From Iamia majanohamensis (GTDB lineage Bacteria; Actinomycetota; Acidimicrobiia; Acidimicrobiales; Iamiaceae): 64,000 nucleotides of DNA. The notes under the pieces were generated by a model. The model was given only the letters and a program-made list of their open reading frames with translations. It did no database searches and was not told the origin of the DNA. Positions 4,665-52,652 of this stretch are shown here, piece after piece. Within the stretch, counting starts at the first letter, position 1. Every line of letters starts with the position of its first letter. Where the stretch lies: assembly GCF_028532485.1 (NCBI RefSeq), contig NZ_CP116942.1, positions 1,116,001 to 1,180,000 of the forward strand. Direction: 5' to 3'. The position numbers were made by a program, and so were the translations under genes.

Positions 4665-7424
4665 CTACGGGAAGGCCAGCTGGTTCGGACCGGGCTGGAT
4701 GACGGTGCCGTCGACGGTGAACACGCCCCCGGCGACCGGCTCGTCCTGGTAGACGTTCGGGCCGGTCGGGGCCGTGTTGTTCACGACGCTGGTGTTGGTC
4801 ACGGTCAGGATCCCGCTGGGCGAGTTCCAGAGCCCGCCGCCCTCGTTGGCGGCGCTGTTGTCCTCGACCCGGCTGGCGTCCATGGTGACGGTGCCGGCCC
4901 CACCGAGGTGGAGACCGCCGCCGTTGCCCGGGTTGGCGCCGGTGCCGTTGTCGAGCAGCCGCACGTCGGTGAGCGTGGTCGTGCCGACCAGGCCCGCCTC
5001 GCCGCCGACGACCTCGATGCCGCCACCGGCACGAGCGGACTCGTTGCCGATGATGGTCGTGTCGCTGACGGTGAGGTCGCCGCGCTCGTTGAGGATGCCG
5101 CCGCCGGAGCCGGAGCCGTTGGTGGCGGTGTTGGCCCAGATGGTGGAGCCGGTGACGGTCAGGGTGCCGCCGCCGGTGCCGTCGGTGTTGGACTGGTTGA
5201 AGATGCCACCGCCACCGGCGTCGGCGGCGGTGCCGTTGGCGGCGTTGCCGACGATGTCGCTGTCGGTGACGGTCATGGTGCCCACGGCCGAGTTCCAGAG
5301 GCCGCCGCCCTCGTTGCCGGCCACGTTGGCCGCGATGGAGACGTCCATGATGGTGACCTCACCCGCACCGCTGGTGTGGAGGGCGCCACCGTTGCCGGGG
5401 TTGGCCCCGGCGTCGCCGGTCCACATGAGGCCACGGGTGACCTCGACGGTGCCGACGTTGGTCTCGATGTTGCCACCGGCGCGAGCCGCGCTGTTGTCGA
5501 AGAGGTTCGTGTCGGTCACCACGAGCGTGCCCTCGTCGTTGAGGATGCCGCCGCCGGAGCCGGAGCCGTTGGTGGCGGTGTTGCCGTGGACGCCCGACCG
5601 GCTGACGGTGAGCGTGCCGCCCGTCTCGCCCTCGCCGTCGTTGAACAGGCCGCCGCCGCCCTGGTCGGCGCCGGTGCCCTCCGAGACGTTGTCGCGGATG
5701 ACCGAGGTCTCGACGTCCATGGTCCCCTCGGAGGAGTTCCACAGGCCGCCGCCCTCGGAGGTCGCCAGGTTGTTGATGACCTCGGAGGCGACCACGTCGA
5801 CGTCGCCGGCACCCGTCAGGTGCAGGCCACCGCCGTTGCCCGGGTTGGGCCCGGCCGTGTTGCCGTCGAGGGTGGAGCTGATGAGGCGGGTCGTGCCGGC
5901 GAGGGCCTCGATGCCGCCACCGGCGCGGGCCGCCTCGTTCTGGATCAGCGTGGTGTCGCGGACCTCGAGGGTGCCGCGCTCGTTGAGGATGCCGCCGCCG
6001 GAGCCGGCGCCGTTGGTGGCGACGTTGGCCCAGATGGTGGAGCCCACGACGGTCAGGTCGCCGCCGTCGGTGTTCTCGGCGTTGGCCTGGTTGAAGATGC
6101 CGCCGCCGCCCTCGTCGGCCAGGTCGCCCCGGGCGTCGTTGCCGACGACGTCGGTGTCGGTCACGGTCATGGTGCCCACGGCCGAGTTCCAGAGGCCGCC
6201 GCCCTCGTTGCCGGCCACGTTGGCCGCCACCGAGGTGCCGCGGATCTCGACGTCGCCGGGACCGGAGGTGTGCACGGCGCCGCCGTTGCCCGGGTTGGCC
6301 CCGGCGTCACCGGTCCAGAGGAGTCCACCGTTCACGTCGACGGAGCCGCCGACGGTCTCGATGTTGCCCCCGGCGCGAGCGGCCGAGTTGCTGTACACCC
6401 GGGTGTCGTTGACGACCAGGTTGCCGTTGTTGTTGAGGATGCCGCCGCCGGAGCCGGCGCCGTTGGTGGCGGTGTTGTCGAAGGCGTCGGACTGGAACAC
6501 GAACAGCGTGCCGCCGTCGTTGAACAGGCCGCCGCCGCCGTTGTCGGCCGCGGTGCCCTGGGCGACGTTGCCGACCACGAGGGTGGCGCCGACGGCCATG
6601 GTGCCGGCCCCCGAGTTCCAGAGGCCGCCGCCCTCGGAGGCGGCGGTGTTCCGGAGGACCCGGGAGAAGAACACGTCGACGGAGCCGTTGCCCGTGAGGT
6701 GCAGGCCGCCGCCGTTGCCGGGCGTGGGCCCGGTGGTGTTGCGCTCGAGGGTGGCCACGACCACGCGGGTGCGGCCGCCGTTCGCCTCGATCGCCCCACC
6801 GGCGCGCTCGGCCCGGTTGAAGCTGAGGGTGGTGCGGTTGACCTCGAGGGTGCCGCCGTCGTTGAAGACGGCGCCGCCCGACGCGCCCTCGCCGGTGACC
6901 CGGTTGTCGATGGCGGTCACGTTCTGGAGGGTCAGCTGGCCGGTGGTGCGGAAGGCGCCGCCGGACTCGCCGGCGGGCGTGCGACCGCCCACGACCCGGG
7001 TGGTGCGGATCGACGCCCGCGCGTTGCGCGCCACGTCGAAGGCGCGATCGCCGAGGGCGGAGATGTTGACGGTGGACCCGGTGCCCTCGACGACCACGTC
7101 GCGGGTGATGTCCAGGTCACCCGACGCGGCGCTGGCGTTGCCCGCACCGGTGATGGTCAGGGGGTAGGTGGCCCGGCGGGCCAGGACGACGGTGGTCGAG
7201 CCGGTGAGGGCGTTGGCCTCCATCACCGCGGCCCGCAGCGAGCACCGCCCGGCCGAGTCGGCGCAGCGGCCGTTGCCGGGGCTGGCGTCGACGGTGTCGG
7301 CCGTCGTGTTCACGGTGAAGGTGCGGCTGGGCGCCCCACCTGTCGTCTGTGCCGCCGCGGGTGCGGCGATGCCCAGGAGCAGGGCCAGCCCTGCTCCGAG
7401 GGCGGTGGTCACTGGTCGTCTCAC
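4665..7424 (-). CDS. Secreted right-handed beta-helix protein with five alternating repeats
   Basis: 919 residues from a GTG preceded by GAGGAGG. A signal peptide (VTTALGAGLALLLGIAAPAAAQ, cut near residue 25) is followed by a CSLREA-like segment (CADSAGRCSLRAAVMEAN, residues 54-71) and then Gly/Asn/Thr-rich coils typical of parallel beta-helices. Five large units each contain PGNGG followed by GGGLWNS. They alternate: type A carries GGLHL, type B carries GGA-HTSG preceded by LWTGDAGANPG. No LPxTG or C-terminal membrane anchor is present, so it is probably released or passively attached. No catalytic site is visible. The opposite strand is open for a similar length but encodes no recognisable protein. 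Confidence 0.85.
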   Translation of the reverse strand: MRRPVTTALGAGLALLLGIAAPAAAQTTGGAPSRTFTVNTTADTVDASPGNGRCADSAGRCSLRAAVMEANALTGSTTVVLARRATYPLTITGAGNASAASGDLDITRDVVVEGTGSTVNISALGDRAFDVARNARASIRTTRVVGGRTPAGESGGAFRTTGQLTLQNVTAIDNRVTGEGASGGAVFNDGGTLEVNRTTLSFNRAERAGGAIEANGGRTRVVVATLERNTTGPTPGNGGGLHLTGNGSVDVFFSRVLRNTAASEGGGLWNSGAGTMAVGATLVVGNVAQGTAADNGGGGLFNDGGTLFVFQSDAFDNTATNGAGSGGGILNNNGNLVVNDTRVYSNSAARAGGNIETVGGSVDVNGGLLWTGDAGANPGNGGAVHTSGPGDVEIRGTSVAANVAGNEGGGLWNSAVGTMTVTDTDVVGNDARGDLADEGGGGIFNQANAENTDGGDLTVVGSTIWANVATNGAGSGGGILNERGTLEVRDTTLIQNEAARAGGGIEALAGTTRLISSTLDGNTAGPNPGNGGGLHLTGAGDVDVVASEVINNLATSEGGGLWNSSEGTMDVETSVIRDNVSEGTGADQGGGGLFNDGEGETGGTLTVSRSGVHGNTATNGSGSGGGILNDEGTLVVTDTNLFDNSAARAGGNIETNVGTVEVTRGLMWTGDAGANPGNGGALHTSGAGEVTIMDVSIAANVAGNEGGGLWNSAVGTMTVTDSDIVGNAANGTAADAGGGGIFNQSNTDGTGGGTLTVTGSTIWANTATNGSGSGGGILNERGDLTVSDTTIIGNESARAGGGIEVVGGEAGLVGTTTLTDVRLLDNGTGANPGNGGGLHLGGAGTVTMDASRVEDNSAANEGGGLWNSPSGILTVTNTSVVNNTAPTGPNVYQDEPVAGGVFTVDGTVIQPGPNQLAFP
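5269..5333 (-). repeat. 65-base identical repeat inside the beta-helix gene (copy 1)
   Basis: Identical to 6163-6227, exactly 894 bases (298 codons) apart. The offset equals one A+B repeat pair, so it marks recent duplication or gene conversion between type B units. Confidence 0.85.
6163..6227 (-). repeat. 65-base identical repeat inside the beta-helix gene (copy 2)
   Basis: Second copy of the block at 5269-5333; it encodes the TVTDT-type turn and the VAGNEGGGLWNSAVG coil. Confidence 0.85.
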
Positions 7425-27046: not shown

Positions 27047-28375
27047 TCAGGTGATCTCGGTGCCGTCGGGGCGGTAGACGTGGATGTGGCCAGTGGGGTC
27101 GCGTCGCACCCGGTAGCCGCGTTCCTTGTCGTGGTTGTGCCTCCCGCAGCCGGGTCCCCCGTTGCCGGGGCATGTACATCCTCCGCCTGATCCGTCGGCT
27201 CGGATCGACCAGGGTCGGAGGTGGTCGCACTGGCAGGCGGTGACGGGGGTGTGGCAGCCGGGCCAGTAGCAGGTGGTCCGCTGGAGCTTGACGGCCAGTG
27301 CGGCGGCGCCGGTGAACAGCCGACGCCGCCGGCCCATGTCGATGACGACGCCGTCGGCGCCGACGACGACCCGCCGGACGTGGCCCACCAGGGCTTGGGC
27401 CACGGCGACGGTGGCCTCGACGGGCCGGCCGTCCAACGTGGAGCACCGGTAGGAGCGGGTGGGGAAGGGGTCGAAGGCGCCTTGGAGGAGGGGGTCGACG
27501 CCGGTGAGGCGGGCCAGCATCCGTTCGAACGTGTGGTGGTCGATGACGATGTTGGTCTCGATGGTGGACCCGGCGGGGGCATCAGCCCGGGCCGTGGCTG
27601 CGGAGCGGAACGCCGCGTGGAGGGCGTCGAAGCGCCGCTGGGCGTCGGTGCGGGGCAGGTCGGATGCCGTGGCGGCAGCGCCACGCTCGGCCCGGGCGGC
27701 ATCCCAGTCGGCGAGGGTCTCCGCCTCGAGGAACGCCTTGAAGATGGATTCGAGCTCGGCGCCGGCGAGGGATCCGCAGCGGCCGGACAGGGTCCAGGAC
27801 CCGTCGAAGCCCTGATGCAACGCGGCGTCGCGGTTCTCGTGGGCTCGTTGGTCGCGGTCGCGGGTGCCGTCCTCGTCGACGAGGCGGACCCAGTCGTCGA
27901 CCATGGCGTCGAAGGCCCGGTACTCCTGAGCCTCGGCCTGGTGGGCGAAGGACTCCTCGTTGGCCTCGACCGCGGCGCGGACCCGGGGGTTGGCGTGGGC
28001 GCGGGCGATGCGTTCGACCTGGCAGCCCCCGATGCGCCCCGAGGCGAAGGCGTTGCGCACTGCGGGCATGGTGCGCAGGGCCCGGGCGCACTGGGCGCGG
28101 CGGTGGGCCTCGGCCGAGGAGAGCTGGGCGAGGTGGCGGACCATGACCTTGGCGGAGGTGTGGCCGTCGAGGACGCAGGTGGCGGTGCGGTCGATCTGCT
28201 CCACGAGGTCGACCTGCACCGACCGCATGCGGCGGGCCTGGGTCTCCAGGGCCACGATCAGCCCGCGGGCGTCGTCGGCGCTGGTGGGTGTGACCCCGGC
28301 GTGTTGGAGGTCGTCGAGCGCAGCGGCGAGGCGCTCGATCGCCTCTCCCGTGGTGGGCTCGCACACCGTCTCCAT
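27047..28375 (-). CDS. DUF222/HNH endonuclease (13E12 repeat-family protein)
   Basis: 442 residues. The N-terminal DUF222 domain (about residues 15-300; LVEQIDRTATCVLDGHTSAKVMVRHLAQLSSAEAHRR is typical) is followed by an HNH nuclease: CYWPGCHTPVTACQCDHLRPWS provides the Cys pair and catalytic His, and CGRHNHDKERGY the later His. The loop between them carries extra Cys (GGGCTCPGNGGPGCG), giving a zinc-rich variant. These proteins occur in many copies in actinobacteria and their role is unsettled. A palindromic element lies 110 bases upstream of its start. Confidence 0.9.
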   Translation of the reverse strand: METVCEPTTGEAIERLAAALDDLQHAGVTPTSADDARGLIVALETQARRMRSVQVDLVEQIDRTATCVLDGHTSAKVMVRHLAQLSSAEAHRRAQCARALRTMPAVRNAFASGRIGGCQVERIARAHANPRVRAAVEANEESFAHQAEAQEYRAFDAMVDDWVRLVDEDGTRDRDQRAHENRDAALHQGFDGSWTLSGRCGSLAGAELESIFKAFLEAETLADWDAARAERGAAATASDLPRTDAQRRFDALHAAFRSAATARADAPAGSTIETNIVIDHHTFERMLARLTGVDPLLQGAFDPFPTRSYRCSTLDGRPVEATVAVAQALVGHVRRVVVGADGVVIDMGRRRRLFTGAAALAVKLQRTTCYWPGCHTPVTACQCDHLRPWSIRADGSGGGCTCPGNGGPGCGRHNHDKERGYRVRRDPTGHIHVYRPDGTEIT

Positions 28376-28382
28376 GCCCCCG

Positions 28383-28388
28383 AGAGTA
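28383..28388 (-). promoter_or_regulatory. -10 hexamer TACTCT, leaderless start
   Basis: Minus strand, seven bases before the ATG of the HNH gene; the spacer is CGGGGGC. Confidence 0.45.
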
Positions 28389-28484
28389 CGCCGGGGGTGT
28401 GACAGCCAGACCGCCCGCAAACCGTTGCACCACAAGGCTTTCGGGTGCCTCCCACCCGCCCCCCGGGACCCGTCACACGACCCT

Positions 28485-28539
28485 CGCGACCTTTGAGCAC
28501 TTGAGCGCCACATGCGGCGCCAACCGCTCAAAGCTCGCG
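28485..28539. repeat. Two-stage stem-loop element, copy A
   Basis: The outer arms 28485-28498 and 28526-28539 pair at 13 of 14 positions (CGCGACCTTTGAGC with GCTCAAAGCTCGCG). Internal loops of 6 and 5 bases follow, then an inner stem GCGCC/GGCGC and the loop ACATGC. Copy B at 52602 has the same core GCCACATGCGGCGC and the same geometry but different paired arms. Copy A lies between the methyltransferase gene and the HNH gene. TTGAGC occurs twice on the left, allowing an alternative register. Confidence 0.75.
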
Positions 28540-43787: not shown

Positions 43788-43967
43788 TCAGGTGGGGCGG
43801 GGGTCGAACTCCTGGGGCTCGCCCACGGGCTCGCCGTCCTCGGTGACGTGGATGCGGTAGGCGTCGCCCCGGCGGTTGGAGGCGGCCCAGTCGTGGGCGG
43901 CATCCTCGCTCACCAGCGGGGGGCTGAGGTCGCCCGGCTCGGTCTCGACCTTGTAGCTGGTGGTCAT
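43788..43967 (-). CDS. 59-residue hypothetical protein
   Basis: Not recognised. Begins MTTSYKVETEPGDLSPP and ends GEPQEFDPRPT; mostly polar with a central DWAASNRRGDAYRIHVTEDG that could be a small beta hairpin. The ATG lies seven bases after a TAGGAT hexamer. Similar short proteins of this type may be DUF2188-like, but that is a guess. Tail-to-tail with the acetyltransferase gene. Confidence 0.7.
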   Translation of the reverse strand: MTTSYKVETEPGDLSPPLVSEDAAHDWAASNRRGDAYRIHVTEDGEPVGEPQEFDPRPT

Positions 43968-43980: not shown

Positions 43981-44010
43981 CGGACGCCTCCCGCGGTCGC
44001 GACGCCCGTG

Positions 44011-44197
44011 ACCTGCGACGCCGGTCAGCGAAGACCGCTGCCGCACGCCGCAGGTCCGGCCCGGCGGCCGGGGAGCCGACGATCTGCGACGCTGGTCAGC
44101 GAAGACCGCTGACGCGCGTCGCAGGTCCGACCCGGCGGCCGGGGAGCCGACGACCTGCGACGCTGGTCAGCGGAGACCGCTGATGCGCGTCGCAGGT
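44011..44197. repeat. Three tandem 71-base repeats, each a two-stage stem-loop
   Basis: Copies of a 45-base palindromic block start at 44011, 44082 and 44153, separated by a nearly identical 26-base spacer. In the third copy the 11-base outer stem ACCTGCGACGC/GCGTCGCAGGT is perfect, followed by 3-base internal loops, a six-base inner stem TCAGCG/CGCTGA and a five-base loop. The first copy has decayed pairing. Lies between the malQ 3' end and the promoter of the 59-residue gene. Confidence 0.85.
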
Positions 44198-44220
44198 CCG
44201 GCGGTCGCGCCGTGGTGGGG

Positions 44221-45540
44221 TCAGCGGCGCAGGCGGCCGGAGGCCTCGACCGCGCCGCGCAGGCGGGCGGCCACCGCCGGGGTGAGGTCGGCGGCGTCGG
44301 CCCGCCAGCGCCACGAGGCGCCCGCCGTGCCCGGCAGGTTCATGCGGGCCTCGGAGCCGAGCCCGAGGACGTCCTGGAGGGGCACGACGGCCAGCTCGGC
44401 CGGCGAGGCCAGGGCCAGGCGCACCAACGTCCACCACGGCTCGGGCTCGACCACGTCGGCCTCGTCGGCGGCGTCGAGCACCGCAGCCTGCACCGACGCC
44501 GGCACCGCCTCCCACCAGCCCCGGGCGGTGTCGTTGTCGTGGGTGCCCGAGTAGCAGACCTGGTGCACGTGGTGGGCCGACGGGTGGTGCGGCGACGGCG
44601 GGCCGCCGGGCGGGGCGTCGAAGCCGAACTGGAGCACGACCATGCCCGGGAACCCGAGGCCGTCGCGCAGGCGCTCCACCGGGGGGGTGATGACGCCCAG
44701 GTCCTCGGCGATCACCGGCAGCGGCCCGAGCTCGGCGGCGGCGGCGTCGAACACGGCGCGACCCGGCCCCCGCACCCACCGGCCCTCGATGGCCGTGGGC
44801 GAGGTCTCGGGCACCTCCCAGTAGGCGGTGAAGCCCCGGAAGTGGTCGATGCGGGTGAGGTCGACGAGCTCGAAGGTGCGGCGGAGGCGGGCGACCCACC
44901 ACCGGTACCGACGGCGGCGCAGGGCGGGCCAGTCGTAGATCGGGTTCCCCCAGCGCTGGCCGGTGGCGCTGAAGGCGTCGGGCGGCACGCCGGCGACGAC
45001 GCCGTCGCGGAAGAGCTCCGGGTGGGCCCGGTGGTCGACGCTGCCGGCGGCCACGTAGATGGGCACGTCGCCGACGAGCCGGACGCCGCGCTCGGCGGCG
45101 TGGGCCCGGAGGGCGCCCCACTCGCGGTCGAAGCGGACCTGGTCGCGCACGGCCTCGCGCCCGCCGGCCAGGGCCTCCCAGTCGCCGATCCAGTCGGCGG
45201 CCCGGGCCCGCAGGGCGTCCTCCTCGTCGAGGGTGACGGGTGCCTCGGGGTGCTCCAGGAGGCCGGGCCAGCCGGCGAAGGCCGAGGCCGACCGGTAGGG
45301 CGAGCCGTGCTCGTCGGGCGGGCCGAGCGGCAGCACCTGCCACCAGGAGGCCCCGGCGGCGGCCAGCCAGTCGACGAAGCGGCGGGCCCCGTCGCCCAGG
45401 CGTCCCCCGGGCACCGATGTGACATGTGCCAGCACCCCGGCCGAGCGGCCCCCGGCGAAGCCCGCATCCCCTTGCAGGGTGGCGTCGCCGGGCGCGACGT
45501 CCGAGGTCAGGGCGGGGGTGGGGGGATCGGGGCGGTGCAT
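44221..45540 (-). CDS. malQ: 4-alpha-glucanotransferase (amylomaltase)
   Basis: 439 residues, compact for a bacterial MalQ. GH77 motifs: nucleophile D232 in RIDHFRGF, acid/base E279 in VIAEDLG and D335 in GTHDNDT. N-terminal SAGVLAHVTSVPGG replaces the usual H-x-T-S-L-P. Transfers glucan segments between chains and handles maltose/maltotriose from the glucan loop. Start at ATG 45540; the upstream reading frame stays open across the divergent gene but has no family support there. Divergent from glgE with only 30 bases between starts, so the two transcripts share a promoter region. Confidence 0.9.
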   Translation of the reverse strand: MHRPDPPTPALTSDVAPGDATLQGDAGFAGGRSAGVLAHVTSVPGGRLGDGARRFVDWLAAAGASWWQVLPLGPPDEHGSPYRSASAFAGWPGLLEHPEAPVTLDEEDALRARAADWIGDWEALAGGREAVRDQVRFDREWGALRAHAAERGVRLVGDVPIYVAAGSVDHRAHPELFRDGVVAGVPPDAFSATGQRWGNPIYDWPALRRRRYRWWVARLRRTFELVDLTRIDHFRGFTAYWEVPETSPTAIEGRWVRGPGRAVFDAAAAELGPLPVIAEDLGVITPPVERLRDGLGFPGMVVLQFGFDAPPGGPPSPHHPSAHHVHQVCYSGTHDNDTARGWWEAVPASVQAAVLDAADEADVVEPEPWWTLVRLALASPAELAVVPLQDVLGLGSEARMNLPGTAGASWRWRADAADLTPAVAARLRGAVEASGRLRR

Positions 45541-52601: not shown

Positions 52602-52652
52602 CGAACCTTGGACGCACCCCCGCCACATGCGGCGCACTCCGTCCAAGGTCCG
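52602..52652. repeat. Two-stage stem-loop element, copy B (between glgB and treZ)
   Basis: Outer arms 52602-52614 and 52640-52652 pair at 12 of 13 positions (CCTTGGACG/CGTCCAAGG within), then internal loops of 6 and 5 bases, inner stem CGCC/GGCG and loop ACATGC. The core matches copy A at 28485 exactly over 14 bases while the arms differ. It is the only real gap in the trehalose-glucan operon and may tune expression of the downstream half. Confidence 0.75.

Follow-up and report, generated by a model that had tools for sequence, protein, structure and literature searches.

Tandem imperfect palindromes behind malQ in Iamia majanohamensis belong to a dispersed repeat family with near-constant spacing

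What kind of element is the short tandem array that lies just behind malQ in Iamia majanohamensis? The window, that is, the whole 64,000-nt stretch of DNA that was analysed, came with an earlier note in which three tandem 71-base nested-hairpin units were described and a strong terminator, a protein-binding array or a fixed mobile unit was proposed. The array was recovered by TRF at 44010-44202 (period 71, 2.7 copies, score 330), and the 45-nt blocks began at the three starts given there, 44011, 44082 and 44153 (Table 1). Units 2 and 3 carried the claimed 11-bp outer stem, 3-nt internal loops, 6-bp inner stem and 5-nt loop, and unit 1, which had been called decaying, was less well paired than the other two. 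Folded as 48-nt single-stranded DNA, units 1, 2 and 3 gave -19.0, -21.4 and -24.1 kcal/mol, with z values of -5.3, -6.0 and -7.6, respectively, and 0 of 200 shuffles was equally stable in each case. No Rfam 15 match above the gathering score was found in the 64-kb window, and a known structured RNA was thus rejected. There was no sign of the array as coding sequence, a candidate rejected because the units recur only between called genes. A separate tandem repeat with a 450-bp period (3.3 copies, 70% matches) was seen at window positions 5001-6477.

Table 1. Coordinates of the array, its neighbours and related units (window positions unless a locus is named)
Feature	Position	Strand	Remark
F1 unit 1	44011..44055	-	least well paired; minus is the strand on which the core reads CAGCGGTC
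Spacer 1	44056..44081	.	nearly identical to spacer 2; no relation to the spacers of other loci
F1 unit 2	44082..44126	-	
Spacer 2	44127..44152	.	
F1 unit 3	44153..44197	-	most stable of the three
malQ, 4-alpha-glucanotransferase	44221..45540	-	PF02446; stop codon ~22 nt from the array
59-aa ORF	43788..43967	-	same strand as malQ and downstream of the array; without a Pfam match
Element A of the earlier note, F2 unit	28487..28538 (model-match span)	+	end of the DUF222 gene unit
Element B of the earlier note, F3 unit	52605..52649	+	
DUF222 unit copies	window 27047-28538; L137:3677-5171; L142:1562-3046; L152:3657-5150		
F4 and F5 doublet loci	L299:14925-15032 and L303:10924-11040		random sample of the I. 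majanohamensis genome

When the whole genome, a single contig of 4.58 Mb, was searched at the DNA level, array-like matches were returned from far outside the window. The pattern CTGCGACG-N20..34-CGTCGCA occurred 20 times per strand, one longer unrelated match being included among the 20 forward matches, against 0 for the reversed pattern. With a covariance model built from 22 units, 25 units were found at 13 loci (3 single, 8 double, 2 triple), and this family was designated F1; the malQ array, between malQ and the 59-aa ORF, is one of the triples, so that similar units do exist elsewhere. The spacings between units were 71 (8), 72 (3) and 82 bp (1), and most F1 loci were direct pairs or triples 71-72 bp apart, in which the units were alike and the spacers, of 24-25 nt, unrelated. 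The units, ~47 bp long, could be aligned without gaps for 22 of the 25 (those at 1945850, 3769914 and 4361650 are absent from the alignment). The outer arms CCTGCGAC and GTCGCAGG were nearly invariant and the interior was variable, while the asymmetric core CAGCGGTC was invariant in all 22. Of the inner pairs, 19-31 and 21-29 were each formed in 4 of the 22 units and 22-28 in 3; the nested inner stem is almost confined to the malQ array copies, and the trait kept throughout F1 is the outer dyad with the asymmetric core. Overall covariation in the 22 aligned units was not above that of shuffles. Beside one F1 pair (L003:1682-1897), a 23-bp near-perfect hairpin was observed together with a G-rich minisatellite whose units, 14-16 nt long, are GGGTCAGCGGTTGGGG-like.

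The family appeared to be restricted to this species, since no F1 was found in 23 other genomes of the bacterial family; the mobile unit of the earlier note is supported in so far as the units are dispersed and species-restricted. The exact F1 pattern also had no match in genome_contigs or viral_contigs. The control pattern of family H, which lies in another genome of the genus (G015), was likewise unmatched in genome_contigs, and the silence of F1 there is therefore weak evidence.

Two sister families, F2 and F3, were present in the same genome with 31 further units at 22 loci. They have the core CGCCACATGCGGCG in common and differ in their arms. The remark that elements A and B share the architecture of the array was right, A falling in F2 and B in F3. 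The spacings in F2 and F3 were 62 (5), 72, 59, 61 and 63 bp. The F2 arms covaried beyond most shuffles, with 11 two-sided-change cells against 6.7 and 16 of 500 shuffles as high. Furthermore, an unbiased scan of 400 kb of the genome yielded two doublet families, F4 (period 62) and F5 (period 71).

The F2 model had matches in 10 of 24 genomes, I. majanohamensis included; outside this genome, the better matches proved to be other palindromes, and chance probably accounts for some of the weakest. In G013, 23 palindromes were found, nearly all single, with one pair at a spacing of 94, and in G002 there were 31, with spacings of 74, 73, 72, 72, 72, 77, 84, 96, 118, 73 and 74. An unbiased scan of 800 kb of G015 gave family E (three loci at 62), families H and J (both at 70-71, with five and three loci, respectively) and further rows at 148, 115, 45 and 42; a scan of 400 kb of G002 gave spacings of 83, 73, 73 and a weak 96, and G016 carried one locus with a pair of another family at 70. 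Scanning malQ-like loci (52 kb) and DUF222 loci (113 kb) revealed no palindrome pair. Taken over I. majanohamensis and its relatives, the palindromes were ~47 bp, imperfect and usually bordered by CG, and different species carried different sequence families; these often formed direct pairs, whose periods were near 62, 70-74 or 82-84 bp.

With genes called by our own unsupervised ORF caller, all 35 F1-F3 loci of I. majanohamensis lay outside genes, mostly 6-30 nt behind a stop codon. The neighbouring genes ran in the same direction at 23 loci, converged at 8 and diverged at 4. Among the same-direction loci, 19 of 23 were closer to the 3' end than to the next 5' end (p 0.0013). Measured against the available bases in this genome, the deficit of divergent loci (4/35, p 0.10) was not significant and no enrichment of convergent ones was found (8/35, p 0.62). 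The position was checked at 17 loci in G013, where 23 units had been found, and at 8 in G002, where there were 31 units: all 17 loci in G013 (11 of them convergent) and all 8 in G002 were beside a gene 3' end, and none in either genome was divergent. The loci of I. majanohamensis occurred in either orientation relative to the gene, a tolerance that is expected of a hairpin; 17 of the 35 were single units, and each of the 18 multi-unit loci had its units in one orientation. The suggested strong terminator agrees with the position just behind stop codons and is not supported by the sequence: a T-tract followed the stem at 0 of 35 loci, and none was predicted at the malQ array. A canonical intrinsic terminator was thus rejected, the stable hairpin near the stop being present and the T-tract absent. 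The flanks towards the elements were somewhat C-rich (0.53 and 0.48 C against 0.44 at 187 control gene ends), which is a weak signal. The U-tract-less intrinsic terminators and hairpin clusters described in an extract of another study (PMC8355165) are similar in having stable hairpins shortly behind the stop; the elements here differ from them in their repeated sequence families, invariant core and fixed period. The invariant core is mostly unpaired, and a plain hairpin would not need such a core.

The spacers, with the element taken as 47-48 nt, were mostly 14-15, 24-26 or 35-36 nt long. A constant 26-base spacer had been claimed for the array; constancy of sequence held inside the malQ triple, whereas at other loci the length was kept and the sequence was unrelated. 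F1 units were 0.883 identical within loci and 0.764 between loci. The spacers of different loci were 0.455 identical (0.409 when shuffled), hardly above the flanks, for which 0.476 and 0.443 were obtained (0.449 and 0.404 when shuffled). The triples carried copied spacers, and at three loci the spacer resembled its own flank, a sign of local duplication there. When the first spacing of each locus was used, the Rayleigh R at 10.5 bp was 0.87 for 20 loci of I. majanohamensis and 0.74 for 44 values drawn from four genomes. Omitted from this test were later spacings of multi-unit loci (e.g. 77), the G015 rows 148 and 115 (identity 1.0) and 42 and 45 (GC-rich), and the weak G002 row 96 (L315); the 17 distinct family values were chosen by hand. 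As the spacings are partly inherited within families, this result describes the data firmly but is a weak test.

Spacing in steps of about one helical turn would fit the protein-binding array of the earlier note. In that case some protein or enzyme would recognise two palindromes lying on the same helical face, and the paired units would be its DNA sites; it might be a roadblock or a nucleoid or supercoiling clamp. Selection would then act on the spacing and not on the spacer sequence. The length classes of unrelated spacers, the recurrence of these periods in three genomes among unrelated families, the Rayleigh values and the invariant, mostly unpaired core all argue for it. However, since arms and cores differ among the several families of one genome, either several proteins or a reader of shape would be required, 17 of the 35 loci and nearly all of those in G013 are single, spacings of 77, 94, 96 and 118 are outliers, and the spacing test is not independent where family spacings may be inherited; we consider this reading somewhat unlikely. 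A broader proposal is that the bacterial family holds a superfamily of geometry, in which many unrelated sequence families form direct pairs of ~47-bp palindromes with unrelated spacers of ~15, 24-26 or 35-36 bp and an end motif tied to the period, with GAACCTTG-like ends mostly at 62 and GTTC(C)TG-like ends at 70-72. Geometry rather than sequence would be conserved, either because a protein that recognises shape maintains it or because an insertion enzyme measures out the length, and there might be a link to DUF222 nucleases. This is possible, if doubtful.

CRISPR arrays consist of a repeat, an unrelated spacer of near-constant length and a further repeat. The loci described here are similar in having repeats separated by unrelated spacers of near-constant length, but differ in that there are only two or three repeats, the spacers of triples are copied and the loci are many and dispersed. 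An integrase might add 15 or 24 bp at a palindrome and duplicate the ~47-bp target, in the geometry of CRISPR uptake; in its favour, paired units can be identical (47/47), and the spacer, nearly constant in length, bears no relation to the flanks or to other loci. This explanation was judged very unlikely, because the spacers of triples are always copied and never new, the three loci with spacers like their own flank point to local duplication, three spacer stretches had no match in viral_contigs, and gene conversion within old pairs would look identical. Phage-derived spacers were rejected, the three stretches, of 20 nt each, being unmatched in viral_contigs.

According to the excerpted text of a survey of REPs (Di Nocera et al. 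2013, PMC3733652), these sequences occur as several families per genome, in intergenic positions near gene 3' ends. The present elements resemble REPs and BIMEs as short dispersed palindromes of several, often species-specific families, with dimers and a place near 3' ends (PMC3733652). On the other hand, they are 45-49 nt long, compared with 20-40 nt for REPs, their dimers are direct (18 of 18 multi-unit loci) rather than inverted, and their periods near 62, 70-74 or 82-84 bp are unlike those of REPs, direct dimers being called absent or under-represented in the same text (PMC3733652). Furthermore, F1 has no conserved unpaired GTAG or CGTC tag, CGTC being found solely inside the paired right arm. 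For the Y1 transposase (PF01797), there were 0 matches in the I. majanohamensis genome and positive controls in 5 of 14 genomes, and a RAYT/Y1-driven REP was therefore rejected; the CGTC-tagged REP families have no dedicated transposase either, in the excerpted text (PMC3733652). REPINs, which an extract of a second study (PMC3116915) presents as mobilised by RAYT, are comparable in that a palindrome doublet is the likely unit, but their doublets are inverted, those here are direct, and the present genome has no PF01797 protein. Since length, tag, dimer orientation and Y1 gene all failed to agree, the elements are regarded as a variant of the REP/BIME type and not as members of it. The literature searched, with most subscription journals outside it, listed nothing on such elements in this lineage. 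That pairs of different families in related bacteria have almost equal spacing suggests an undescribed variant of repeat element.

A possible mobiliser was met in F2. A 1.49-kb gene unit encoding a DUF222 protein occurred in four copies, ~90% identical, in the I. majanohamensis genome, and it ran from the stop codon of the gene to an F2 palindrome ~110 nt upstream of the start. The palindrome of the fourth copy was degenerate. An in-frame TAG was noted in one of the four copies. An HNH motif in the protein was recognised by eye; Pfam gave DUF222 only. This unit resembles the REP13E12/HNH/DUF222 elements of mycobacteria, as given in an extract (PMC10589994), in being a multi-copy 1.5-kb DUF222 unit, here F2-ended; it differs in that the F2-ended form was found at four of 12 DUF222 genes and none was beside F1. 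A general link with DUF222 was rejected, 8 of the 12 genes having no adjoining F1, F2 or F3 and none having F1. The F2-ended unit is a possible mobiliser. G015 likewise had a multi-copy DUF222 unit (L217, L220, L224, L228, L232, L236, L239, L242 and L245), with a hairpin GGTGAGCCCGCC..GGCGGGCTCACC behind the stop. At L236 and L242, a second palindrome, CCACGGANGGTGCC.GGCACCNTCCGTGG, flanked the unit on both sides, and it was also found in G015 away from DUF222 genes.

The doublets might also be purely selfish: a transposase or nuclease would copy them, and behind genes they would be tolerated although they do nothing for the host. Species-restricted families, mixed orientation, an F2 palindrome at the end of a four-copy gene unit and the failure to find a conserved position are in agreement with this. 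Neutral decay would, however, affect all parts alike, while the core and arms are nearly invariant and the interior and spacers diverge; the genome also has no Y1/RAYT gene and no DUF222 gene beside F1. We regard it as unlikely.

Comparison of corresponding sites gave one orthologous gene interval with elements in both genomes, a single F1 unit in I. majanohamensis (3769914; L132:3015-3063) and a pair of another family in G016 (L115:411-528); this is a single case from two species of one genus, and the elements are behind different genes. The G015 orthologue of malQ (74% identity) lies ~8 nt from another gene and has no element there, and so offers no clean empty site. None of the syntenic gaps listed with the G015 sample contained an element of a known family. 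Neither an empty site nor movement of a unit was observed, which counts against the explanation that we prefer below. Different palindromes were seen just upstream of the same oxidoreductase-like gene in two genera (L098:1501-1552 in G015 and L099:1501-1552 in G003); the I. majanohamensis orthologue had an F2 pair on the opposite side.

The explanation that we tentatively prefer, at somewhat less than an even chance, is that these are REP-like palindrome doublets, probably mobile and non-autonomous, which may be kept at gene 3' ends as bidirectional transcript ends, insulators or barriers to 3' decay. Units would be spread by some enzyme as non-autonomous mobile elements, and recombination over the 71-bp period may have turned doublets into triples, whose spacers would for that reason be copies. 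Behind genes, a stable hairpin or cruciform might act between neighbours as a bidirectional transcript end, insulator or 3'-decay barrier, and doublets probably persist there because this structure serves. A bidirectional role at gene 3' ends would be the most probable function. Counted for this explanation were the dispersed family, the 3'-end position in either orientation, the F2 covariation, the copied spacers of trimers and the similar placement of REPs. Counted against it were the T-tract at 0 of 35 loci, the F1 covariation not above shuffles, the invariant yet mostly unpaired core and the non-significant divergent and convergent placement; the fixed spacing, which termination does not account for, is a further point against it.

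The finding would extend REP-like repeats to a genome in which no Y1/RAYT gene was found, and in the form of direct, evenly spaced doublets, which the excerpted REP survey calls absent or under-represented (PMC3733652). The near-constant spacing over unrelated spacers provides a testable handle on what holds or makes the pairs. Moreover, a widespread protein family of unknown function gains a candidate partner in the F2-ended DUF222 unit.
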